Assembly: GCF_000633535.1 (NCBI RefSeq)
Contig: NZ_AYMR01000006.1
Location: forward strand, 1 to 64,000
Origin: Leifsonia aquatica H1aii
Lineage (GTDB): Bacteria > Actinomycetota > Actinomycetes > Actinomycetales > Microbacteriaceae
Direction of reading: 5' to 3'
DNA length: 64,000 bases
Part shown: positions 43,848 through 64,000 of the stretch, in pieces
Numbering within the stretch: position 1 is the first letter of the stretch
Layout: every line of letters starts with the position of its first letter
Notes under the pieces: generated by a model
Seen by the model: the letters and a program-made list of their open reading frames with translations, nothing else
Database searches by the model: none
What the model was told of the DNA's origin: nothing
Position numbers and translations under genes: made by a program

Positions 43848-44903
43848 TCAGCGCGAGAGGCGCTCGACGATCGAACCGAAGAGCTCGGGTCGCGCGGCTG
43901 CTGTCGGCACGATGCGTGGCCGGAACCGGGAGCGGGAGGCGATGACGAGCGCCGAGGTCAGCATCCGGAAGTCCCGGGTGGTCGCCCGCCAGGCGCGTTC
44001 GTACTGCTCGGTGTCGCGCGTACGCACGGCGGCCACCGCGGCGCGGGCCTGAGCGAAACCCACCCGCATCCCTTCGCCGGTGAGCGCGTCCACGTAGCCC
44101 GAGGCGTCGCCGGCCAGCAGCACATGACCGGACGCGCGGGCGCGGGCGCGCTGGAGCAGGGGCCCGGCGCCGCGGGCGGAGCCGACGACGGTGGAGCCGG
44201 CGAGCCGGGAGGCCAGGGCGGGGAGCGTGTCGAGCACGGCGTCCTGGTCCAGCGGCCGTCGTCCCAGCACCGCGACGCCGACGGTGTGCTCGTCGACCGG
44301 GGTCACATAGGCCTCGGCGGCGGGCGACCAGTGCACCTCGACCAGCTCGCTCCAGGGCTCGACGGCGTAGTGCCGGCGCACGCCGTAGCGCCGGCGCGCC
44401 TCCGCCTGCGGGCGGCGCTCCAGCCCGAGCATCCGCCGCACGGGCGAGTGCAGGCCGTCCGCTGCGATGGCCCAGGGAGCCTCCAGGCCCGTTCCATCGG
44501 CCAGCTCGAGACGGACGCGGTCGCGCTGCTGGGTCAGGCCCGAGACCCGGCCGTCCCTGCTCCGCGCTCCGAGCTCCTCGGCGCGCCGCGCGAGGGCGGC
44601 ATGCAGCACCGTGCGGCGGACGCCGCGCCCCGGGCGCTCGGCGAACCGGTGCTCGACCCGGGTGTCGTCGTCGATGTAGGCGATCCCGGCGAGGGGGTGC
44701 CCGGCCGGGTCGACGCCGATGCGGTGCAGGGCCGCGAGCGCGCCCGGCATCAGACCCTCCCCGCAGGCCTTGTCGATGGGGCCGTCCCGGGGTTCGACGA
44801 TCAGCACGTCCATCCCGTCGAGGCGCGCCTCGATCGCGCAGGCCAGCCCGACCGGGCCGCCGCCGATGACGACGAGGTCGGGGATCGGCCCCGCGCCGCT
44901 CAT
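43848..44903 (-). CDS. FAD-dependent monooxygenase/reductase, SrsC-like
   Basis: A 351-residue flavoprotein of the PHBH/geranylgeranyl-reductase group. VVIGGGPVGLACAIEA binds the ADP part of FAD, KACGEGLMP is typical of the group, and HVLLAGDASGYVDALTGEGM is the second FAD motif. Its ATG overlaps the methyltransferase stop. After a type III polyketide synthase and an ICMT-like enzyme it would hydroxylate an alkylresorcinol ring to a quinol, as SrsC does in Streptomyces griseus. The reaction is inferred from operon order. Confidence 0.85.
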   Translation of the reverse strand: MSGAGPIPDLVVIGGGPVGLACAIEARLDGMDVLIVEPRDGPIDKACGEGLMPGALAALHRIGVDPAGHPLAGIAYIDDDTRVEHRFAERPGRGVRRTVLHAALARRAEELGARSRDGRVSGLTQQRDRVRLELADGTGLEAPWAIAADGLHSPVRRMLGLERRPQAEARRRYGVRRHYAVEPWSELVEVHWSPAAEAYVTPVDEHTVGVAVLGRRPLDQDAVLDTLPALASRLAGSTVVGSARGAGPLLQRARARASGHVLLAGDASGYVDALTGEGMRVGFAQARAAVAAVRTRDTEQYERAWRATTRDFRMLTSALVIASRSRFRPRIVPTAAARPELFGSIVERLSR

Positions 44904-45424
44904 GCCCGCGCGGGGACGACGGTCGCCAGCGCGCGATCCTCGCACGGGATGCGCACGGCGAGCAGCAGGACGGCGTTCAGCACGGTGAAGGCGAGGGCGG
45001 TGATCCACGCCGTGTGCACGAGGGGCAGGGCGAATCCCTCCACCACCACGGCGACGTAGTTGGGATGCTTCAGCCACCGGTAGGGACCCCGCACCACGAG
45101 CGGCAGGTCGCGCACGACGATGACCCGGGTGTTCCACCGCGGACCGAGAACGGCGATGCACCACCAGCGCAGCGCCTGGCTGGCGAGCACCAGCACGAGC
45201 ATCGGCCAGCCGAGCCAGGGGAGGAACGGGCGGTCGCCGAACCACACCTCCGCCAGGCAGGCCAGCAGCAGGCCGGTGTGCAGCGCCACCATCGGGGGGA
45301 AGTGCCCGCGTCCGAACTCGACGCCGCCACGCGCGAACGACCAGCGGGCGTTGCGGGTGGAGACGACCAGCTCGGCGATGCGCTCGGCGCCCGTGGCCAG
45401 CACGAGCACCAGGTACCAGATCAC
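44900..45424 (-). CDS. ICMT-like membrane methyltransferase, SrsB/BpsB-like
   Basis: A 174-residue membrane protein with about five helices. RVIVVRDLPLVVRGPYRWLKHPNYVAVVVE is the isoprenylcysteine methyltransferase signature, with the RHPxY-type SAM motif read here as KHPNY. The family member next to type III polyketide synthases O-methylates phenolic lipids. It overlaps both neighbours by four bases. Confidence 0.85.
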   Translation of the reverse strand: MIWYLVLVLATGAERIAELVVSTRNARWSFARGGVEFGRGHFPPMVALHTGLLLACLAEVWFGDRPFLPWLGWPMLVLVLASQALRWWCIAVLGPRWNTRVIVVRDLPLVVRGPYRWLKHPNYVAVVVEGFALPLVHTAWITALAFTVLNAVLLLAVRIPCEDRALATVVPARA

Positions 45425-46524
45425 GCGGCCGCGCCGATCGCGGTTCCCGCGTGCGGGGCGCCCTCGGCCCAGCGCAGCAGCACCAGCTCACTGGTGACCC
45501 CGGGTCCGAGAGCGAAGAGCAGCCCGACGGTGCCGGCGGCGTGGGCGTCCAACTGCTCCGCCAGCACGTGCAGCACCGCGGCCGAGGAGAGGTTGCCGAC
45601 CCGAGCCAGCGACCGCCAGCTCGCATCGAGCGCTCCCTCGGGGAGGTCGAGCGCCTCGGCGAACGCCTCCAGCACCTTCGGGCCGCCGGGATGCGCGGCC
45701 CACGCCCCGACATCGGCCACCTCGAGGCCGTGGGCGGCGAGGATCCCGCGAGCGTCGCCGGCGAAGTTGCGCTCGATCACCTCGGGCACGCCGGCGCTCA
45801 GCACGATGCGGAATCCCGTGCCGCCGATGTCCCAGCCGATGACGTCGGCGGTGTCGGGGTAGATGCGGCTGCGGGTGTCCACCACGTCGGGCCCCGCGAG
45901 ACCGAGCGCCGCGGCCCGCTCGTCGCCGACCATGACGACCGCCGCCGCGCCGTCGCCGAAGAGCCCGCTGGCGACGATGTTGGCCATCGAGTCGTCGCTG
46001 GCCTGAACCGTCAGGGAGCACAGCTCGACCGAGAGCAGCACCGCGACCTCCCGCGGATGCCCGGCGAGGTAGTCGTGCACCCGGGCGATTCCCGCCGCCC
46101 CGGCGACGCAGCCGAGCCCGAAGCTGGGCAGTCGCTTGACGTCGGGCCGCAGCCCGAGTCGCGCGACCAGTTGCGCGTCGATCGAGGGAGCGGCGATGCC
46201 GGTCACCGAGGTGAAGAGCAGGAAGTCGACATCGGCCGGTTGCAGCCCCGCCGAGGCGAGCGCCCCGGTGACGGCGCGCTCCGCCAGGGTCGTGCCCTCC
46301 GCGATGAAGAAGTCGTTCGACTCCTGGAACGACGCGATCGAGCTGTACCGCTCGAGGGGCATGACGAGGCTGCGGGTCTCGACGCCGCTCGCCGCATGGA
46401 TGCGCCGCATCACGGCCTGGCGCTGCGGGTCGGGGGTGATCATCCCCAGCAGCGCGGTCGTGATCTCCTGCTGGGGGTAGCTGCGGGCCGGGAGCACCGG
46501 CGCCACCGACACGATTCGGCTCAC
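45421..46524 (-). CDS. Type III polyketide synthase, alkylresorcinol/alkylpyrone type
   Basis: A 367-residue homodimeric ketosynthase. The catalytic triad is Cys139 (FGLGCVAGAAG), His278 (AAHPGGPK) and Asn311 (VGNLSSAAV). It would extend long-chain acyl-CoA with malonyl-CoA to make alkylresorcinols or alkylpyrones. I use the GTG at 46524, although neither it nor the GTG at 46548 has a strong ribosome binding site. It is the first gene of the SrsABC-like operon. Confidence 0.9.
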   Translation of the reverse strand: MSRIVSVAPVLPARSYPQQEITTALLGMITPDPQRQAVMRRIHAASGVETRSLVMPLERYSSIASFQESNDFFIAEGTTLAERAVTGALASAGLQPADVDFLLFTSVTGIAAPSIDAQLVARLGLRPDVKRLPSFGLGCVAGAAGIARVHDYLAGHPREVAVLLSVELCSLTVQASDDSMANIVASGLFGDGAAAVVMVGDERAAALGLAGPDVVDTRSRIYPDTADVIGWDIGGTGFRIVLSAGVPEVIERNFAGDARGILAAHGLEVADVGAWAAHPGGPKVLEAFAEALDLPEGALDASWRSLARVGNLSSAAVLHVLAEQLDAHAAGTVGLLFALGPGVTSELVLLRWAEGAPHAGTAIGAAA

Positions 46525-46640
46525 AAGCGCAACGTACACCCGGCGCACATCCTGCGACGACGGCTCACGGCCGCCTCACATCTGGACCGGATGCCGGCCG
46601 TCGGCGAGCGATTCGCGACGGCCGGTCCGAGTGCGGACGC

Positions 46641-47045
46641 TCAGGCGAGCACGGCCAGCGCGTCGATCTCCACCAGCATCTCCGCGCGCGGCAGCCCGGT
46701 GAAGACGGTGGTGCGGGCCGGGAGCACTCCGGAGGCGACGCGGGCGCCGACGAACTCGCCGTAGGCCTCGTTCATGGCCGCGAAGTCGTCGCGCGTGGTG
46801 AGGTAGACGCGCAGCATCATCACGTCGTCGAAGCCGGCCCCGCCTGCGGCGAGGATGGCCTCGACGTTCTGCAGGGTGCGGGTCGTCTGCGCCTTCACAT
46901 CGCCCGGGTGCAGGTACTCGCTGGTGGCCGGGTCGACCGGCCCCTGGCCCGAGACCTGGAGGAACGGACCGCGGCGCACGCCCTGCGAGAAGGTGTGCGC
47001 GGGCGGCGGGGCGTCGGTGGTGGAGACGGCGATGCGGTCGGTCAT
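46641..47045 (-). CDS. RidA family enamine/imine deaminase
   Basis: A 134-residue YjgF/RidA protein. FLQVSGQGPVDPATSEYLHPGDVKAQTTRTLQNVEAIL and PARTTVF, with the Arg that binds the carboxylate, are family features. RidA proteins hydrolyse reactive 2-aminoacrylate-type enamines released by PLP dehydratases. Here the partner is probably the PLP enzyme at 49014. The ATG overlaps the IclR stop by four bases. Confidence 0.88.
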   Translation of the reverse strand: MTDRIAVSTTDAPPPAHTFSQGVRRGPFLQVSGQGPVDPATSEYLHPGDVKAQTTRTLQNVEAILAAGGAGFDDVMMLRVYLTTRDDFAAMNEAYGEFVGARVASGVLPARTTVFTGLPRAEMLVEIDALAVLA

Positions 47046-47848
47046 GCTGAGCCTTTCGGAACGGCGGACGCACGGGCGCCCGGGAGGGTTGCGGTCGGGA
47101 CGGCGGAGGGGGGTGCCCCCAGTTCGGCGGAGACGCGCGCGGTCGCGAGGAGCAGTGCGGGGAGCAGCCCGAGGACTCCCTCGTAGGGCAGCACCACGTT
47201 CGGTACCGACACCGAGACGGCGGCCGCGATGCGCCCGTCCGCGCCGAAGACGGGGGCGCCGACGCAGTTCATGAACGTCTCGTGCTCCTCGTGGTCCTCG
47301 GCCCAGCCGCGGGCGGCGCTGTGCCGCACCTCGGCGACGAGCTCGGCGGCGCCGCCGATCGTCCGCTCCGTGTAGCGCTGGAACGGCACGCCCGCGACGA
47401 CGCGCTCGAGCTCGGCGTCGTCGAGCGCGCCGAGCAGCACCTTGCCGACGGCGGTCGCGTGCAGCGCTGCGGGGAGGCCGACGCGGGAGTACATGCGCAG
47501 CGGCTGCCGCGACTCGACCTTGTCGATGTACGTGACCACGCCGTCCTGGTAGGTCGCCAGGTGGACGGTCTGGCCGGTCTCGGCCGCGAGAGCGTGCAGG
47601 GCGGGGGAGGCGGCGGAGCGTACATCGCGGGCGTCGAGGGCGCTCTCGGCGAGGGCGAAGACCGCCGGGCCGAGATGGAACCGGTGGGAGCTGTCGCGCC
47701 CGACGAATCCGCGCTCCTCCAGCGTCTGGAGGAGGCGGAGGACCGTGGTCTTGTGGACGCCGACCTCGTCGGCCAGGGCGTCGAGCGTCGCGACGCCGCG
47801 GGAGACCAGGTCGAGCACATCGAGGGCGCGACCGAGGGACTGGCTCAT
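47042..47848 (-). CDS. IclR family transcriptional regulator
   Basis: A 268-residue repressor. The winged helix reads ATLDALADEVGVHKTTVLRLLQTLEERG and is followed by an effector-binding IclR domain (LATYQDGVVTYIDKVES, HATAVGKVLLGAL). GGAGGAG lies three bases before the ATG at 47848. It lies between the kinase and ridA genes in an overlapping operon and should bind the repeats at 48931-48957. IclR effectors are often sugar acids. Confidence 0.88.
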   Translation of the reverse strand: MSQSLGRALDVLDLVSRGVATLDALADEVGVHKTTVLRLLQTLEERGFVGRDSSHRFHLGPAVFALAESALDARDVRSAASPALHALAAETGQTVHLATYQDGVVTYIDKVESRQPLRMYSRVGLPAALHATAVGKVLLGALDDAELERVVAGVPFQRYTERTIGGAAELVAEVRHSAARGWAEDHEEHETFMNCVGAPVFGADGRIAAAVSVSVPNVVLPYEGVLGLLPALLLATARVSAELGAPPSAVPTATLPGARASAVPKGSA

Positions 47849-48852
47849 GCGCTCCTCCAGGGGATCTCGCCGGGGTGCACGCGCCACCCGGACCATTCGT
47901 CGCGCGCGGCGGCGATCGTCGTGCGCTCGTCCGCGCTCGGCACGGAGAGCGGGCGGTCGCCGTGGCCGATCAGGGTCAGCGCCGCCAGGGCGTGCCCCAG
48001 CCGCAGGGCGGCTTCGTCGTCGCGGCCTTCCGCGAGCCCGGCGAGGAACCCGGCGGCGAACGCGTCCCCCGCCCCGACCGGCTCCACGACCTCCACCGTC
48101 AGGCAGCGGACCTCGGCCTCGCGCCCGTCCCTGCGGTGCACCGACGCGCGATGGGCGTCCTCCTTGAGCACCACGGCGTCGAGCTGCGGGAACGCAGCGA
48201 ACAGGCGCACGGGGTCGGCATGACCGAAGTGGGCAAGGGCCTCGTCGTGACCGGAGAAGAGCAGGTCGGCCTGGGCGACGAGCGCATCCAGCGGCGCCGT
48301 GTCGCGACCGTGCCAGAGCCGGGGGCGGTAGTTGAGGTCGACGCTGACCACGGTCCCCGGTCCCGCCGCGGCGCGGAGTCCGGCCGTCGCCTCGGCGGCG
48401 CTCGGCGACAGGGCGGCGGTGATGCCGCTGGTGTGCAGGTGGGTGGCGCGGGCGAGCAGCGCACCGGCGGGGGAGGTGCGCAGCAGTCCGGGGGAGAGGG
48501 TGGAGGCTGCGGAGCCCTGGCGGTAGTAGTGCATCCGCGTCGTGACGCCGTCGGGCCCGGGGGTGGGCTCCTTGATGTAGAGGCCGGTCGGGCGCGCGTC
48601 GTCCGTCTCCACGGCCGAGACGTCCAGCCCGGCGTCGGCCGCGACCCGGCGGATGCGCTCGCCGAAGCCGTCGGCCCCGAGGCGCGAGATCCAGGCGGCG
48701 GGCAGTCCGAGCCGGGCGAGGGAGGTGGCCACGTTGAACTCAGCGCCGCCGACATCCGAGGCGAAGTCCCGCGCCTCGGCGAGCGGCCGGTGCCCCTCCG
48801 GGTAGAGCACGACCATCGCCTCGCCGAGCGTGACGAGCAGGGGTGAGGGCAT
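47845..48852 (-). CDS. kdgK: PfkB family sugar kinase, 2-keto-3-deoxygluconate kinase-like
   Basis: A 335-residue ribokinase-fold kinase. GGAEFNVATSLARLGL is the first PfkB signature, and VEVVEPVGAGDAFAAGFLAGL is the second, holding the catalytic Asp and the anion hole. The start VTLGEAMVVLYPEG is typical of KDG kinases. AGGAGGGGGG precedes the ATG. With the aldolase at 50288 it would convert 2-keto-3-deoxygluconate to pyruvate and glyceraldehyde 3-phosphate. Substrate by inference. Confidence 0.82.
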   Translation of the reverse strand: MPSPLLVTLGEAMVVLYPEGHRPLAEARDFASDVGGAEFNVATSLARLGLPAAWISRLGADGFGERIRRVAADAGLDVSAVETDDARPTGLYIKEPTPGPDGVTTRMHYYRQGSAASTLSPGLLRTSPAGALLARATHLHTSGITAALSPSAAEATAGLRAAAGPGTVVSVDLNYRPRLWHGRDTAPLDALVAQADLLFSGHDEALAHFGHADPVRLFAAFPQLDAVVLKEDAHRASVHRRDGREAEVRCLTVEVVEPVGAGDAFAAGFLAGLAEGRDDEAALRLGHALAALTLIGHGDRPLSVPSADERTTIAAARDEWSGWRVHPGEIPWRSA

Positions 48853-48930
48853 CCCCCCTCCTCTCGAGTGCGCATGGGCGGTGGTCTTGGCGGACGTCCC
48901 TCCGCATGCTAGAACAGAACGAGCACACAC

Positions 48931-48957
48931 TGCAACGCCCGTTGCAACATACGCAAC
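48931..48957. promoter_or_regulatory. Overlapping inverted repeats, IclR operator candidate
   Basis: TGCAAC-GCCC-GTTGCA (48931-48946) and GTTGC-AACATAC-GCAAC (48941-48957) share their central arm. They lie in the 161-base divergent spacer between the kinase and the PLP-enzyme genes, so one site can control both operons. Confidence 0.65.
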
Positions 48958-49013
48958 GTGCTGCACTGCAGCGACATCCACCCGCATCCACGCCCCACCA
49001 CCGGAGGACCGAC

Positions 49014-50276
49014 GTGAGAGAGTACAAGGCCGTACCGCTCGGCTACGCCCCGGACGACGTCGCCGCGCTCGACGGCGCTCCCGCCGCGCTCCGCGACTTC
49101 CCGACCCCGCTCGTCACCCTCAGCGAGAGCGCCGTCGCGCACAACCTCGCGACGATGGCCGACTGGTGCCGCAGCACCGGGATCGGGCTCGCGCCGCACG
49201 GCAAGACCACGATGAGCCGTGAGCTCTGGCAGCGTCAGCTCGACGCCGGCGCGTGGGGGATCACGGTCGCGACCCCCTGGCAGGCCGCCGTCGCCCTCGG
49301 CTGGGGCGTGCCGCGCGTGCTGCTCGCCAATGCGCTGGTCCAGCCGGCGGCGCTGCGCACCCTCGCGCCGGACACCGACCGGCTGACCGTCTGGGCGGAT
49401 TCCGTGCGCGCGGTCGAGATCATGACCGAGACGCTGGCCGGCTCCGGTCTGCCCGGCGGCGCCCTGCCCGAGCCGCTCGCCGTCCTGGTCGAGCTGGGTG
49501 CCCCCGGCGGCCGCACCGGGGCCCGCACCGCGGAGGAGGCGCTCGCCGTCGCCCGCGCGGTCGCCGCCTCCCCCGTCCTTCGTCTCGCCGGCGTCGCCGG
49601 CTACGAAGGCGCGCTCGCCCACGACGGCAGCGCCGAGTCCCTCGCGACCGTGCGCGGCTACCTCGAGCGGATCGGGGCCGTGCACGATGCCCTGGAGGCC
49701 GCCGGACTGTACCCGGAGGACGCCCCGGCGATCCTCACGGCCGGGGGCAGCGCCTACTTCGACGTCGTCGCGGAGGTCCTCGCTCCACGGCGCGATCTCG
49801 CCGGCGCCCGGGGCCGGGTCGTCGAGGTTCTGCTGCGTTCCGGCGCCTACCTCACGCACGACGACGGCTTCTACAGCGTCATCGCGCCACTGGGCCGCGC
49901 CGGGGGAGGGACGTTCCGCTCCGCGATCCACGGCTGGGCCACCGTCGTGTCCCGACCGGAGCCCGGGCTCGCACTCGTCGACGGCGGCAAGCGGGACTTC
50001 CCGTACGACGAGGGGCTGCCCGTGCCGCAGGCGGTCCGGGCGTACGGCGCCGATCACGACCTCCCCCTCTCCGGCGCGGTGGTCACGGCGATGAACGACC
50101 AGCACACGTTCGTACGCCTGCCCTCGCACGCCCGTGTCGAGGTGGGGGACGTGATCCGCTTCGGCCTCTCGCACCCGTGCACCACCTTCGACAAGTGGCG
50201 CGCCCTCCCGGTCGTCGACGACGCCCTCGGCGCAGACCCGCGCGTGATCGGCCTGCTCGAGACCACCTTCGGCTGA
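49014..50276 (+). CDS. PLP-dependent D-threonine aldolase/D-serine dehydratase-like enzyme, D-glucosaminate dehydratase candidate
   Basis: A 420-residue alanine-racemase-fold enzyme. Lys64 in APHGKTTMS is the PLP Schiff-base Lys. AGGSAYFD and the late metal pair, His in NDQHTFV with His/Cys in LSHPCTTFD, mark the DSD1/D-threonine aldolase family. Known activities are beta-elimination from D-serine-type amino acids and from D-glucosaminate. Neighbouring KDG-kinase, aldolase, RidA and deacylase genes favour D-glucosaminate. The GTG at 49014 follows CGGAGGACC closely. Confidence 0.8.
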   Translation: MREYKAVPLGYAPDDVAALDGAPAALRDFPTPLVTLSESAVAHNLATMADWCRSTGIGLAPHGKTTMSRELWQRQLDAGAWGITVATPWQAAVALGWGVPRVLLANALVQPAALRTLAPDTDRLTVWADSVRAVEIMTETLAGSGLPGGALPEPLAVLVELGAPGGRTGARTAEEALAVARAVAASPVLRLAGVAGYEGALAHDGSAESLATVRGYLERIGAVHDALEAAGLYPEDAPAILTAGGSAYFDVVAEVLAPRRDLAGARGRVVEVLLRSGAYLTHDDGFYSVIAPLGRAGGGTFRSAIHGWATVVSRPEPGLALVDGGKRDFPYDEGLPVPQAVRAYGADHDLPLSGAVVTAMNDQHTFVRLPSHARVEVGDVIRFGLSHPCTTFDKWRALPVVDDALGADPRVIGLLETTFG

Positions 50277-50287
50277 ACGGACACAGC

Positions 50288-50911
50288 ATGCTGCTCGACA
50301 CCCTCCGCCGCGACCGCGCCCTCGCCGTCGTACGCGCCCCGCGCATCGACGACCCGGTCGGCCTCTGCCGTGCGCTCGCCGCCGGCGGCATCCGCACCGT
50401 CGAGTTCACCTTCACGACCCCGGGGGTGGAGGAGGTGATCGCCGCCGCCGTCGCCGGCGAACATGACGCGCTGGTGGGCGCCGGCACCGTGACCGACGCC
50501 CGCACGGCGGAGGCCGCCGTCGCCGCCGGAGCGCGCTTCCTGGTGACCCCCGGCCTCAGCGAGGGCGCCGCCGGTGTCGCGCGGGAATCGGGCGTGCCCA
50601 TCCTGCTGGGCGCGGTCAGCCCCACCGAGGTGATGCGCGCGATCGAACTGGGTGCCGCAGCGGTCAAGGTCTTCCCGGCATCCCTGGTCGGTCCGCGCTA
50701 TCTCCGGGACCTGGCCGGGCCGTTCCCCGGCACCCTCTTCGTGCCCTCGGGCGGACTCGACGCCGGCAACGCGCGCGAATGGATGGACGCGGGAGCCCTG
50801 GCCGTGACCGCAGGCTCGAGCGTCGTGAGCGCGAACGACATCGCGGCCGCCTCGTGGAGTGCGGTGACCGAGCGGGCGCGGGAGTTCGGCGCGGCCGCGG
50901 CCGGCGCATGA
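50288..50911 (+). CDS. eda: KDPG-type class I aldolase
   Basis: A 207-residue TIM barrel. Lys127 in AAVKVFPAS is the Schiff-base Lys and Glu39 in VEFTFTTP the general acid/base. The Arg found in VTLRT of Escherichia coli Eda is Thr43 here, so specificity may differ (KDPG, KDPGal or an unphosphorylated analogue). GAGTVTD and VPSGGL complete the family pattern. It follows the PLP-enzyme gene by 11 bases and its stop overlaps the deacylase ATG. Confidence 0.85.
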
Positions 50912-52521
50912 GCGGATCGGCGCCGACGCTCATCCGCGGCGCGCGGGTGCTCGACGGAAGCGGCCGGCCGGGCGAGACGGGCGACGTGCTCCTCACCGAG
51001 GGCCGTATCCGGCGGGTCGGCGGCCGTCTCGACGCTCCGGGCGCGCGCGTCATCGACGCCGACGGTCTCGCGCTCGCACCCGGCTTCATCGACATGCACG
51101 CCCACTCCGACATCGCCGTCCTGACCGATCCGGTGCACCTGGCGAAGGTCTCCCAGGGGGTCACGACCGAGGTCGTCGGGCAGGACGGGCTCTCGTACGC
51201 CCCCGCGACCTCCGTCGCAGCGGACGTCCTGCGCGACCAGCTGGCCGGCTGGAATGGCGTCCCGCCCGGCCTCGCCCTCGGCTGGCCGACCGTGGGCGCC
51301 TACCTGGAGGCGGTCGATGCCGCCCGCCCGGCCGCGAACGTCGCGGCCCTCGTGCCCCAGGGCACGGTGCGCCTCGACGTCGTCGGCGCTGCCGACCGCC
51401 CGGCGACCGCCGGCGAGCTCGCCGCCATGCGCGCCCTCGTCGAGGCAGGGATGCGCGACGGCGCCTTCGGGATGTCCTCCGGCCTCACCTACGTGCCCGG
51501 CATGTTCGCCGGCACGGACGAGCTCGTCGCCCTCTGCACGGTGGTCGCCGCGCACGGCGGGGTGTACGTGCCGCACCAGCGGTCGTACGGCGCGGGGGCG
51601 CTCGACGCCTACGCCGAGATGATCGACATCGCCCGGCGGTCGGGCGTCGCCCTGCACCTCGCGCACGCCACCATGAACTTCGGCGTCAACCGCGGGCGCG
51701 CGGGCGAGCTGGTGGCGCTGCTCGACGCGGCCATCGCGTCCGGTGTCGAGCTCACCTTCGACACCTACCCCTACCTGCCGGGCTCGACCACCCTCGCCGC
51801 ACTCCTGCCGTCCTGGGCGGCGGACGGCGGACCGGCGGCGACGCTCGACCGCCTTCGCGACGAGGCGCTGCGTACGCGGATAGCCCACGAGCTCGACGTC
51901 GTCGGGACCGACGGCTGCCATGGCGTTCCCGTGGAGTGGGAGACCATCGAGATCTCCGGGGTGCGCGACCCGGCCCTCGCCGATCGTGTCGGCCGCACCG
52001 TCGCCTCGCTCGCCACCGCCTCGGGAGAGGCCGCGTCCACCGTCGCCCTGGATCTGCTGCTGGCCGACCGGCTCGGCACGGGGATCCTGCAGCATGTCGG
52101 CGACGAGGCCAACGTGCGCACGATGATGGCGCACCCGCGGCACACCGGCGGAAGCGACGGCATCCTGGTCGGTGACAAGCCGCATCCCCGGGCCTGGGGC
52201 ACCTTCCCGCGCTACCTCGGGCACTACGTGCGCGACGAAGGCGTGCTGCGGCTGGAGGACGCCGTCGTCCACCTCGCGGCCCGTCCGGCCGCCCTTCTCG
52301 GGCTCACCGACCGCGGCCGCATCGCCCCCGGGCTCGTAGCGGATCTGGTGCTCTTCGATCCCGCGACCATCGCGGATCGGGCCACCTTCGCGGCCCCGCG
52401 CCGGCAGGCGGAGGGCATCCCGTGGGTCCTCGTGGCGGGCGAGCCGGTCATCGCCGAGGGCGCGCGCACCGAGGCGCGGCCTGGGCGCGCGCTACGCTCG
52501 TCGGCATGCGCGCCTTCCTGA
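50908..52521 (+). CDS. N-acyl-D-amino-acid deacylase-like amidohydrolase
   Basis: A 537-residue amidohydrolase of the D-aminoacylase family. [10 protein letters not shown] has the metal-binding HxH, LHLAHATM and a late VGTDGCHG Asp complete the site. The Cys of the usual GNCG motif is replaced (VVGQDGLS), as in some uncharacterised relatives. It could remove the acyl group from an N-acyl-D-amino acid or N-acetyl-D-glucosaminate, feeding the PLP enzyme. The ATGA overlap with the aldolase shows coupling. Confidence 0.82.
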
Positions 52522-53088: not shown

Positions 53089-54240
53089 TCAGCCCTGGGC
53101 TTCGCGGACGATCGCGACGAGCGGGTCGAACAGGACCTCGCCAGGGACGACCCCGGTGACCTCCGACACGATCTCCTCCGCCGAGGCCTCCTCCAGCAGG
53201 TGGCGGAGCTCGACGCTCTGCGTGTCCGCGGGCACATAGAAGCGCAGCGCGGCGCCGACGGCGGCCAGCAGCGCCTGGGGCACAGACCCGACGTAGGCGA
53301 CGTGGTCGATCGCCGGACCGATGAACCGGTCGTTGCGGCCCAGCTTGCGCAGCGGTTCGCGTCCGACGCGGGCCACCTCGTCCACCAGGTGCGGGTTCGC
53401 GAAGCGGCCGAGGATCGTCGCGCGATAGGCGGCCATCTCCTCCGGGTCGAGGCCGTGCTTGGCGACGAGCGCGGCCGACGTCTCGCGCAGGGCGTCCTCG
53501 GCGGCCTGCCGTACGGCCGGGATCGCGATGGCCTCGCTGATCGTCTCGGCCCCCTGCAGGAAGCCGGTGTACGCGACCGTGGCGTGCCCGGTGTTCACCG
53601 TGAAGAGCTTGCGCTCGATGTACGGCGCCAGGGAGTCCACGAAGTGGGCGCCCGGGATGGCGGGCTCACGGCCGGCGAACGGGCTGCGGTCGACGACCCA
53701 CTCGTAGAACGTCTCGACGGTCACATCCACCCCCGCGCCCGGAGCCTGGGCGGGGACGATCCGGTCCACCGCGGTGTCGGCGAAGACGGCCTTGGCGGCC
53801 AGCGCCTCCCGTGTCTCGTCGTCGAGCAGACCGTCCATCAGCTCGGCGGCCAGCAGATCGGTGGCGCCGATCGCGTTCTCGCACGCCATGACGGCGAGGC
53901 GCGGGGCGTCGTCCGCTCGGGCCGCGAGGCCCTGCGCGATCACCGGGGCGACGAAGCGCAGGATGCGCGGGCCGACCGCTGTCGTGACCACGTCGGCCGT
54001 GGCGATCTCGGCGACCAGCGCCGCCTCGTCGGTCGCGCTGTTGATGGCGCGGAAGCCGGTGACGGTCCTGGTCTGCGACTCCTCGCCGACCAGGTGGACG
54101 TCGTAGGAGTCGGCCGCGGCCAGTGCGTCGATGAGGTCGGCGTTGACGTCGGCGAACACCACCTCGTACCCGGCTTCGTGGAGCAGGAGCCCCACGAAGC
54201 CGCGGCCGATGTTGCCTGCCCCGAAGTGGACGGCCTTCAT
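53089..54240 (-). CDS. mtlD: Mannitol-1-phosphate 5-dehydrogenase
   Basis: A 383-residue polyol dehydrogenase. [17 protein letters not shown] at the N-terminus is the canonical MtlD NAD site, and [11 protein letters not shown] plus YMER-like ERKLFTVNT segments are conserved. I prefer the ATG at 54240 because GAGGTGA lies eight bases before it; the GTG at 54252 is less likely. It oxidises mannitol 1-phosphate from the PTS to fructose 6-phosphate. Confidence 0.95.
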
Positions 54241-54253
54241 GCGTTCGGTCACC

Positions 54254-54691
54254 TCAGTCGTTCACGTCGCCGAGGAGCGCGAACAGCGCGTCGGCGTCCG
54301 GAGCCTCGATGAGCTCCCGCACGTCGTCGTCCTCCGAGAAGAGGATGGCGATCTTCGACAGGATCTCGAGGTGCTCGTTGTTCTGTCCCGCGATGCCCAC
54401 GACGAACCGCACCTCCTCGCCGCCCCAGTCGAGCGGCGAGGAGTAGCGGACGAAGGAGAGCGCCGAGCGGGTGATCTCGTCCTTGGACTCGTTGGTGCCG
54501 TGCGGGATCGCGAGCCCGTTCCCCATGTAGGTGGAGACGGTGTTCTCGCGCTCCTGCATCGAGTCGACGTACCCGGGCTGCACCGCGCCGGCCTGCACCA
54601 GCAGCGCGCCCGCCTCCCGGATCGCGTCCTCCCGCGTGGTCGCGGTGCCCGCGGCCACGACGTTCGCCCGGTCGAGAATCGTGTCGGTCAT
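54254..54691 (-). CDS. mtlF: Mannitol PTS EIIA
   Basis: A 145-residue phosphocarrier. His64 in [13 protein letters not shown] is the phosphorylation site. It passes phosphate from HPr to the IIB domain of MtlA. Its ATG overlaps the mtlA stop by four bases. It is a free IIA subunit, whereas in Escherichia coli it is fused to MtlA. Confidence 0.94.
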
Positions 54692-56211
54692 TTGCTGGCG
54701 TCCTCCGGTGCTGATTGGGTCTGCTTGGCGACGAGGTCGACGACCTCGTCGTACTTGGGGCTGTTCATGAAGTTGTCGACCGAGACGTGGAGCGAATCCG
54801 GCGACTGGCCCTTCGCCCGGTCGGTCAGCTGCTGCTGGGTGATGACGAGATCGGCCGTGCCGTCGAGGTCGGCGATGGCCTGGTTCGTCACCGTGACCCC
54901 CTCCACCCCGGCCTTCTTGAACTTGTTGCGGAGCACGGACGCGCCCATCGCGCTCGAGCCCATCCCAGCGTCGCACGCGAACACGATGTTGCGCACCAGT
55001 CGATCGGTGGCATCGCCCTGGGCGTCGCCGGTGTCGTGCTCGCCCTCGTTCACCAGGCTGCCGAGCACCGAGGAGGACTTGCCCTTGTTCGCCTCGGTCT
55101 GGGCGACCGCGGCGGACAGGTCGCCGGCGTTGCCGGTCGCGAGGTCGCGTTTGCGCGTCGCCCGCAGCACGATGGCGCTGAAGGCGAACGAGACCGCCGC
55201 CGCCGCGACGATCGAGACCGCGATGCCCACCATGTTGGGCACCGGGGCCTGCGCGAAGATCGCGAACACCGATCCAGGGGCCGCGGGTGCGCGAAGACCG
55301 GTTCCGAAGGCGACGTTCACCGCGACACCGGTCATGCCGCCGAGCACGGCGCCGATGATCAGGATCGGCTTCATCAGCACGTACGGGAAGTAGATCTCGT
55401 GGATGCCGCCGAAGAACTGGATGATGAAGGCGCCCGGAGCGCTCGCCCGTGCGGCCCCGAGCCCGAAGATCGCCCAGGCGAGCAGGATGCCGGCGCCGGG
55501 GCCGGGGTTCGTCTCGATCAGGAAGAGGATCGACTTGCCGGTCTGCTGCGCCTCGAGCGTCCCGATCGGGGTGAAGACGCCGTGGTTGATCGCGTTGTTG
55601 AGGAAGAGCACCTTGCCCGGTTCGACCAGGATGCTGACGAGCGGCAGCAGGTGCACCGAGACGAGCCAGTTGACGCCCGCCTCCAGCGCCTTGCTGAGGC
55701 CCTCGACCAGCGGTGCGATGCCGAAGAACGCGCCGATGGCCAGGATGAAGCCGAGGATTCCGGCAGAGAAGTTGTTGACGAGCATCTCGAAGCCCGCTTT
55801 GATCTTCCCCTCCCAGATCTTGTCGACGAGCTTCATCAGATAGCCGCCGAGCGGGCCCATGATCATCGCGCCGATGAACATCGGGATGTCGGAGCCGACG
55901 ATCACGCCCATCGCCGCGATGGTGCCCACCACGCCGCCGCGGACGCCGTAGACGATCCGGCCGCCTGTGTTGGCCAGCAGCAGCGGGAGCAGGTACGTGA
56001 TCATCGGGCCGACGAGCCCGCCGATCGCCTTGTTCGGGAACGGCCCCTCGGGGATGAACAGAGCGGTGATGATGCCCCAGGCGATGAAGGCCGGGATGTT
56101 GGGCATGACCATGTTCGAGAGGAAGGTGCCGAAGCGCTGCACGCCGACGCGCGCGCCTCCGGGTCGCTTCGCTGTCGTCGCCGTCGTCGACGTCTCTGTC
56201 GCCGATGTCAT
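54688..56211 (-). CDS. mtlA: Mannitol PTS EIICB
   Basis: A 507-residue membrane transporter. The IIC domain (about 25-350) has FLSNMVMPNIPAFIAWG and the conserved GGIHEIYFPYV (268-278). The IIB domain near the C-terminus has the phosphocysteine Cys413 in FACDAGMGSS. It imports and phosphorylates mannitol. It lies 64 bases downstream of ptsI. Confidence 0.95.
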   Translation of the reverse strand: MTSATETSTTATTAKRPGGARVGVQRFGTFLSNMVMPNIPAFIAWGIITALFIPEGPFPNKAIGGLVGPMITYLLPLLLANTGGRIVYGVRGGVVGTIAAMGVIVGSDIPMFIGAMIMGPLGGYLMKLVDKIWEGKIKAGFEMLVNNFSAGILGFILAIGAFFGIAPLVEGLSKALEAGVNWLVSVHLLPLVSILVEPGKVLFLNNAINHGVFTPIGTLEAQQTGKSILFLIETNPGPGAGILLAWAIFGLGAARASAPGAFIIQFFGGIHEIYFPYVLMKPILIIGAVLGGMTGVAVNVAFGTGLRAPAAPGSVFAIFAQAPVPNMVGIAVSIVAAAAVSFAFSAIVLRATRKRDLATGNAGDLSAAVAQTEANKGKSSSVLGSLVNEGEHDTGDAQGDATDRLVRNIVFACDAGMGSSAMGASVLRNKFKKAGVEGVTVTNQAIADLDGTADLVITQQQLTDRAKGQSPDSLHVSVDNFMNSPKYDEVVDLVAKQTQSAPEDASK

Positions 56212-63326: not shown

Positions 63327-64000
63327 ATGCCTCACGATCTCGTCATCGGCACGTACACCGAACGCCTCCCGCATGTCGACGGTCACGCCGACGGCGTGCT
63401 CGCGGCCCGCTTCGACGGGTCGGAGGTGTCGGACATCTCCGTCGCTGCGCGGGTGCGGAACCCGTCCTGGGTGGCCGTCGCTGCGGGCGGCACGCGCGTC
63501 TACGCGGTGTCGGAGACCGGCCCGGAGGGCGGTCTGCTCGCCTTCGAGCGCGCGGGCGACGGCACGCTCCGGCTGCTCGGCGAGGCTCCCAGCGGCGGCG
63601 CCGATCCCGCACACCTGGCCGTCCACCCGGCGGGGCACCTGCTCGCGGGCACCTACAGCGGAGGCTCGGTCTCGGTCTTCGCGCTGAACGGCGACGGCTC
63701 GATCGGCGCGCGCACCGGGTTCGTTCAGCATGAGGGGCGCGGTCCGGACGATGCGCGCCAGGAGGCGGCGCACGTCCACCACCTCAGTGCCGACCCGGTC
63801 AGCGGCGATGTCGTCGTGGTCGACCTGGGGCTGGGGGAGGTGCGCTGGTACGCCCTCGATGACGACGGTTCCCTGACCCTGCAACCGGAGGCCACGATCG
63901 CCTCCGGCGCCGCCGGCCCGCGGCATCTCGCGTTCCACCCGGACGGCCGGCACGCGTTCGTGCTGAACGAGCTCGACAGCACGCTCGACGTCCTGCGCCG
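63327..64000 (+). CDS. Lactonase family beta-propeller protein, 3' end beyond the window
   Basis: The first ~224 codons of a 6-phosphogluconolactonase/YkgB-type (COG2706) seven-bladed propeller. VIGTYTERLPHVDG begins blade one, and PAHLAVHPAGHLLAGTYSGGSVSVF, HVHHLSADP and GPRHLAFHPDGRHAFVLNEL are the repeated blade motifs. AGGATGGGGGC precedes the ATG. It may hydrolyse sugar lactones, but it is outside both sugar clusters. Confidence 0.85.
   Translation, partial: MPHDLVIGTYTERLPHVDGHADGVLAARFDGSEVSDISVAARVRNPSWVAVAAGGTRVYAVSETGPEGGLLAFERAGDGTLRLLGEAPSGGADPAHLAVHPAGHLLAGTYSGGSVSVFALNGDGSIGARTGFVQHEGRGPDDARQEAAHVHHLSADPVSGDVVVVDLGLGEVRWYALDDDGSLTLQPEATIASGAAGPRHLAFHPDGRHAFVLNELDSTLDVLR

Follow-up and report, generated by a model that had tools for sequence, protein, structure and literature searches.

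The six genes at positions 46641-52521 of the window, as we call the 64-kb stretch of Leifsonia aquatica H1aii DNA analysed here (it opens a 369-kb contig of a 4.58-Mb genome), probably serve together, under an IclR-family regulator, to break down N-acetyl-D-glucosaminate (GlcNAc1A) or a closely related compound. The best matches of the window proteins among named sequences are from Leifsonia. The identities of the genes, their conservation as a unit, the operator between them and the company they keep in related loci (gluconate-type permeases, lactonases, sugar ATP-binding cassette (ABC) transporters and GH20) were observed directly. The GlcNAc1A route itself is already known, having been proven in Pseudoalteromonas as the ong pathway (PMC9537276); what is new is the wide spread of the cluster in actinobacteria. 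The features are as follows.

46641..47045, minus strand: RidA family protein, counterpart of OngD by context (PF01042, 98 bits; 33% identity to RidA from an ong cluster in Vibrio)
47042..47848, minus strand: regulator of the IclR family that probably controls its own expression through the shared operator (PF01614/PF09339, IclR_C and HTH_IclR)
47845..48852, minus strand: PfkB sugar kinase, probably a 2-keto-3-deoxygluconate (KDG) kinase (PF00294; nearest solved structure, Thermus KDG kinase 1v19)
48853..49013, no strand: intergenic region between the two divergent trios, 161 bp by the starts adopted here (sequence; counterparts compared in 73 loci)
48941..48957, no strand: predicted operator GTTGCAACATACGCAAC (GTTGC-N7-GCAAC; conserved motif)
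49014..50276, plus strand: fold-type III pyridoxal phosphate (PLP) enzyme, D-serine-dehydratase-like, probable D-glucosaminate dehydratase with an OngC-like function (PF14031/PF01168)
50288..50911, plus strand: 2-keto-3-deoxy-6-phosphogluconate (KDPG) aldolase of the Eda family (PF01081; TIGR01182; solved KDPG aldolases)
50908..52521, plus strand: D-aminoacylase-like amidohydrolase with Asp93 at the metal-ligand Cys position, probable deacylase of GlcNAc1A (N-acyl amino-sugar acid) (PF07969)

The six open reading frames are all intact in the window sequence and form two trios, the minus-strand kinase, IclR and RidA genes and the plus-strand PLP enzyme, aldolase and deacylase genes, which diverge from the 161-bp gap. 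The Pfam matches of all six proteins lie above the gathering scores, and the gene assignments of an initial annotation of this DNA were borne out. With the chosen start codons, the kinase and IclR genes, the IclR and RidA genes, and the aldolase and deacylase genes overlap by 4 bp each; the starts of all genes except RidA were chosen within longer open frames, and both the gap and the overlaps depend on them. The three overlaps suggest that the genes within each trio are co-transcribed.

In Pseudoalteromonas prydzensis, OngB deacetylates GlcNAc1A, OngC deaminates the product to KDG and KdgK phosphorylates KDG; these three enzymes were assayed, and every gene was required for growth on GlcNAc1A (PMC9537276). 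OngD, a RidA protein, was essential, although its role was reported as unknown and OngC formed KDG without it; Vibrio ong clusters add KdgA (PMC9537276). From the window genes we infer a corresponding scheme, including its substrate, step order, metal chemistry, inducer and the uptake in the source organism. The deacylase would take the acyl group off GlcNAc1A, and the PLP enzyme would eliminate ammonia from the resulting D-glucosaminate (GlcN1A) to give KDG. RidA may assist, perhaps by clearing an enamine or imine intermediate. The kinase would then convert KDG to KDPG, which the aldolase would split into pyruvate and glyceraldehyde-3-phosphate. IclR would bind GTTGC-N7-GCAAC between the operons and be released by an inducer, for which KDG or GlcN1A is our guess. 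The initial annotation had proposed the same route of deacylation, ammonia elimination, phosphorylation and aldol cleavage under IclR. The domains, the ong pathway (PMC9537276) and the permease, lactonase and GH20 neighbours described below support it; as a route it is not new, because it matches the proven ong pathway. The hydrolysis of an enamine by RidA, also proposed there, is conjectural, given that OngC made KDG without OngD. Another route from D-glucosaminate to KDPG is known, in which phosphorylation by the phosphotransferase system (PTS) comes first and the PLP enzyme is unrelated. A proposal for D-glucosaminate in haloarchaea relies on other enzymes, as far as the accessible text shows (PMC12343721).

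The individual enzymes are consistent with this scheme. The closest solved structure to the PLP enzyme is the D-serine deaminase entry 3gwq (226 bits, alignment near full length). Cys in the C-terminal metal-site motif of this family marks dehydratases and Asp marks aldolases. At this site SHPC was found in 118 of the 119 PLP sequences compared, that of the window included, and SHVD in the D-threonine aldolase 4v15. The window enzyme has the features of a fold-III D-amino acid dehydratase, namely the PF14031 domain and H-x-C instead of H-x-D; it also shares the SHPC and PHGKT motifs with 3gwq and OngC. The aldolase passes the NCBIfam eda model TIGR01182 (178.9 bits against a cut-off of 156.05). 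Its PSGG segment has Ser at a position where the Vibrio ong aldolase has Thr and 2-keto-3-deoxy-6-phosphogalactonate aldolase has Val. The best solved relative of the kinase is the Thermus KDG kinase 1v19 (141.7 bits), with which the YYR.GSA and D.NYR..LW segments align; against two NCBIfam models of KDG and 2-keto-3-deoxygalactonate kinases it scored 150-152 bits (cut-offs 400-440), and it reached the equivalog cut-off of no NCBIfam model. The IclR relatives in NCBIfam are BhcR and KdgR, both scoring far under the equivalog cut-offs.

A Vibrio record reached through the window PLP enzyme carries the canonical ong set, named by similarity as GH20, KdgA, KdgK, SSS, RidA, OngB, OngC and RpiR genes. 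Its deacylase is PpOngB-like, with 570 bits to 9kb1 and a higher score, 642, to 9g5m. The window proteins are 34% (PLP enzyme), 35% (deacylase), 33% (RidA), 28% (kinase) and 29% (Eda) identical to those of this cluster; the comparison with P. prydzensis was made for the deacylase alone (30.9% to PpOngB), the other five being set against the Vibrio proteins. In both systems the deacylase, fold-III PLP deaminase, KDG-type kinase and RidA are encoded together; KdgA is shared with the Vibrio clusters, and in some actinobacteria the cluster has a GH20 neighbour, the equivalent of OngA in ong. The systems differ in regulation and transport: ong has RpiR, whereas the window has IclR with a conserved divergent operator, and ong uses SSS/TonB transport, whereas the actinobacterial relatives have GntP, ABC or major facilitator superfamily (MFS) transporters. 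A lactonase is present in some actinobacterial clusters, and there is no tie to a lytic polysaccharide monooxygenase (LPMO) in the source genome.

The initial annotation held that a terrestrial actinobacterial version of the route would be new; the cluster is, however, no isolated terrestrial case. The window PLP enzyme was matched at E <= 0.001 in 64 of 149 genomes, its own included. Regions of up to 20 kb were examined for 40 of the other 63; the remaining 23 had weaker or partial matches and may hide more clusters. The PLP enzyme, deacylase and kinase occurred together in 24 of these 40 genomes as well as in the window, one of them (L065) with broken genes. The gene order of the window cluster is repeated in same-genus genomes and, slightly rearranged, in many named actinobacteria. 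Thus, the cluster is not a chance arrangement. In a scan of named genomes by deacylase alignment, the best 80 loci were kept, so that the counts are minimal and refer to the nearest loci instead of a random sample; 79 lay in 26 named actinobacterial genera, which makes at least 26 genera with the set, and one in a Micrococcales metagenome-assembled genome (MAG). Full-length loci (21.5 kb or more) numbered 62. By tblastn matches anywhere within ~10 kb of the deacylase, they carried PLP enzyme (59), RidA (59), IclR (53), kinase (48) and Eda (15) genes, the kinase, IclR and RidA tallies taking in any member of these families; the neighbours were GntP (40), lactonase (13), ABC solute-binding protein (10) and GH20 (8). 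On a plasmid record from Tsukamurella the whole set is annotated, the last gene being that of a gluconate:H+ symporter.

Three loci of the same genus (L053, L055 and L056) have a second architecture, in which the same enzymes are accompanied by an MFS transporter and a PAS/HTH_22 regulator. The transporter is nearest to metabolite:H+ symporters. The transporter and regulator were assigned by Pfam in L053, and the L055 and L056 copies are 91-92% identical to these. L053 also has a rhodanese-domain gene. Two reduced same-genus genomes of 2.6-2.7 Mb, L065 (G022) and L070 (G017), hold broken remnants of the cluster. The Micrococcales MAG locus (L132) contains two such deacylases, a DgaE-like enzyme, a galactonate dehydratase, Eda and a sugar ABC transporter, and by its gene content it appears to be a larger amino-sugar-acid locus.

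The single divergent operator of the initial annotation was confirmed. Among the kinase/PLP intergenic regions compared, 73 in all (L036 and L077 being one place under two handles), 49 contain GTTGC-N7-GCAAC exactly, and the number rises to 69 when one mismatch is allowed; in 50 shuffles the means were 0.02 exact and 0.7 within one mismatch, with maxima of 1 and 4. The four regions without it were L049, L054, L121 and L129. In the window, the pattern GTTGCRNNNNNYGCAAC matches once, at 48941-48957, and a palindrome at 48931-48946 overlaps it. A degenerate form occurs at three places in the whole genome, the cluster site included; the other two, one within a called gene and one intergenic, had no evident pathway link and revealed no transporter.

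The neighbours of the cluster were compared with chance. In 49 of the genomes with these loci (404.6 Mb by rounded sizes), at most 109 GntP, 104 lactonase and 164 GH20 matches were counted, from which ~0.29, 0.27 and 0.43, respectively, would be expected in 49 segments of 21.6 kb; 33, 12 and 8 were observed, where the background was taken by hidden Markov model and the loci by tblastn, and loci of one family are not independent. The families were confirmed by Pfam on representative loci, and the Tsukamurella permease scored 373.5 as a gluconate:H+ symporter (cut-off 292.75), being far under the DsdX cut-off. Ring opening of the lactone of oxidised N-acetylglucosamine would fall to a lactonase, and release of the end unit to GH20; both would suit GlcNAc1A better than a D-amino acid. 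The window cluster itself is without GH20, which is found elsewhere in the same genome. A PF10282 lactonase lies at 63339-64000 of the window and beyond, ~11 kb past the cluster end, and we did not include it in the cluster. In seven same-genus genomes a lactonase lies ~10-17 kb from the PLP gene.

Several findings weigh against a GlcNAc1A unit, and those concerning the deacylase are given first. Its matches in the PDB are D-aminoacylases (1m7j, E 4.6e-78) and PpOngB (9kb1, 1.1e-61), whose insertion domain did not align. According to the study of PpOngB (PMC12017989; 9kb1, 9kb3 and 9kb4), the Cys97 and Lys254 features are strictly conserved in OngB and D-aminoacylases. The window enzyme has Asp at the metal ligand Cys97, in an unambiguous alignment of the window segment with TTVITGNCGIS, and Thr at both Lys254, which binds the carboxylate, and Ser292. 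Thus, the subtype V metal site of OngB, Cys97/His222/His252, is altered by the exchange of Cys for Asp, with both His retained. The window enzyme shares with PpOngB the amidohydrolase family, the catalytic Asp, the two His ligands, the carboxylate Arg and Tyr; the retained equivalents are HxH, Tyr194, His222, His252, Tyr285, Asp368 and Arg379. Ser291 is kept as well, at a position that is variable among relatives. Columns 298 (in the insertion) and 116 (shifted between alignments) were dropped from the comparison, which also left out 193, 256 and 348. Among 136 aligned deacylases, mostly close actinobacterial relatives picked by similarity, the Cys97 column has Asp in 127, Cys in 7 and a gap in 2 (Asp in 124 of the 133 distinct sequences), and the Lys254 column has Thr in 114, His in 10, Lys in 10, Gln in 1 and Val in 1. 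Two haloarchaeal relatives have the Asp and retain the Lys. In the Croceicoccus and Deinococcus relatives (L171 and L173), the metal-ligand column is a gap and HxH is altered, which reflects either misalignment or another type of active site. No such gene set was seen among the listed genes around the relatives in the two haloarchaea, Deinococcus, Croceicoccus and Burkholderia, for which the gene table is incomplete. The Streptomyces D-aminoacylase Sco4986 is reportedly active on hydrophobic N-acyl-D-amino acids. Since the active site of the deacylase departs from the signature found in deacetylases with proven GlcNAc1A activity, we infer its N-acyl substrate solely from the gene context.

Other findings point the same way. 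The deacylase does not group with OngB, nor the PLP enzyme with OngC. In the trees, which were made quickly, with a chosen root and few sequences from outside the actinobacteria, OngB pairs with AfDam (support 0.999) and is separate from the Asp clade (0.99), and Vibrio OngC pairs with 3gwq (0.995) apart from the actinobacterial PLP enzymes. A Pantoea PLP enzyme that adjoins an amino-acid ABC transporter sits on the actinobacterial side, and therefore that side of the tree is not specific for sugar acids. The breadth of the kinase, IclR and RidA tallies is a further point, as is the lack of a nearby kinase in 14, of Eda in 47 and of a PLP gene in 3 of the 62 full-length loci. All eight GH20 loci belong to Pseudonocardiaceae genera. 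Twelve of the 13 lactonase loci are in genera that we take to be Pseudonocardiaceae as well, the other being in Kineococcus; among the relatives, L069 and L050 also have a lactonase. This concentration means that the lactonase and GH20 neighbours represent few independent events.

Uptake and the origin of the substrate belong here too. No transporter gene adjoins the six genes in the window. The sole GntP of the genome was a candidate for the uptake system, but was rejected on account of its neighbour, an apparent gluconate kinase, as judged by eye. An AA10 LPMO (PF03067) was not found in the source genome; the family was matched in 7 of the 149 genomes and in one (G093) of the 25 seen with the cluster. 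Three LPMO genomes (G097, G115 and G147) have a PLP match, their regions being outside the 40 examined. Thus, the pathway is not part of a self-made AA10 chitin oxidation in this organism, and a coupling to chitin oxidation by LPMO was dropped for it. The substrate would come from other organisms.

These points leave room for other explanations. The same chemistry might serve another epimer or acyl form, such as N-acetyl-galactosaminate, N-acetyl-mannosaminate or a D-glucosaminate with a different acyl group. The active-site residues of the deacylase differ from those of OngB, neither GH20 nor lactonases are restricted to gluco forms, and the galactonate dehydratase and DgaE-like enzyme (the latter under its cut-off) of the Micrococcales MAG locus lean in this direction. 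We regard this explanation as unlikely, because the aldolase passes the KDPG-type eda model with Ser in its PSGG segment and the kinase is nearest to KDG kinase. A pathway for N-acyl-D-amino acids, for example N-acetyl-D-serine or N-acetyl-D-threonine, in which the kinase and aldolase serve something else, is in our estimation improbable. In its favour, D-amino acids are the best-known substrates of both the deacylase and the PLP family, D-serine and D-threonine are deaminated by OngC too (PMC9537276), and relatives in Azospirillum and Pantoea adjoin peptide or amino-acid transporters; however, the Azospirillum and Pantoea stretches examined contain no kinase or aldolase and the deacylase in Azospirillum has the Cys, whereas the actinobacterial unit includes a kinase in 48 and a GntP permease in 40 of the 62 loci.

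Finally, D-glucosaminate itself, or an amino-sugar acid scavenged from cell walls or antibiotics, might be the real substrate, the deacylase having drifted to another role. The loss of the Cys metal ligand and Lys254 and the lack of an AA10 LPMO in the genome would agree with such a drift; nevertheless, the deacylase gene is intact and, by the start adopted here, shares 4 bp with the aldolase gene, and its product keeps the remaining active-site residues that were checked, so that we consider this very improbable.

Beyond the cluster, a minus-strand row at 43848-46548 of the window comprises a type III polyketide synthase, an ICMT-family methyltransferase and a flavin adenine dinucleotide (FAD) oxidoreductase, and presumably resembles the srs phenolic-lipid operon of Streptomyces. 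On the other side, at 53089-56211, a gene that we read as mannitol-1-phosphate-dehydrogenase-like is followed by PTS EIIC/EIIB domains; such a dehydrogenase-like gene adjoins the cluster at 14 loci, of which two represent one place.

If the cluster is a GlcNAc1A unit, it would be a variant of the known ong pathway, possibly one that was assembled independently. Independent assembly would then be the simplest reading, the alternative being deep divergence followed by loss. A fuller proposal can be offered only tentatively, as we think it less likely than not to hold as a whole: that GlcNAc1A catabolism in actinobacteria was independently assembled from different branches of the two enzyme families, that the deacylase with Asp for Cys and without Lys constitutes a new kind of active site among GlcNAc1A deacetylases and a new metal-site subtype of its amidohydrolase group, and that this genus, without its own LPMO, feeds on oxidised amino sugars that others release. 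In PMC9537276, the complete ong pathway is reported only in Gammaproteobacteria and one Betaproteobacterium, from a survey demanding at least four co-occurring homologues with E<1e-5 and >30% identity to P. prydzensis. Our results suggest that a survey at >30% identity from marine proteins can miss the actinobacterial version.

Actinobacteria are leading degraders of chitin in soil, and in the open-licence literature, to which our search was directed (subscription papers being outside its scope), we found no description of how they would use the oxidised amino sugars that LPMO action yields and no paper on an actinobacterial GlcNAc1A route. In the accessible part of a 2018 review of actinobacterial chitinolysis (PMC6097792), LPMOs are mentioned and the terms aldonic, gluconic, oxidized, KDPG and aminoacylase do not occur. 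The conserved unit would offer a concrete, testable route for oxidised amino sugars in actinobacteria. In addition, its deacylase would be a natural case of an amidohydrolase with a swapped metal ligand, and the set may serve as a marker for genes that carry generic names such as 'N-acyl-D-amino-acid deacylase', 'alanine racemase' and 'sugar kinase'.

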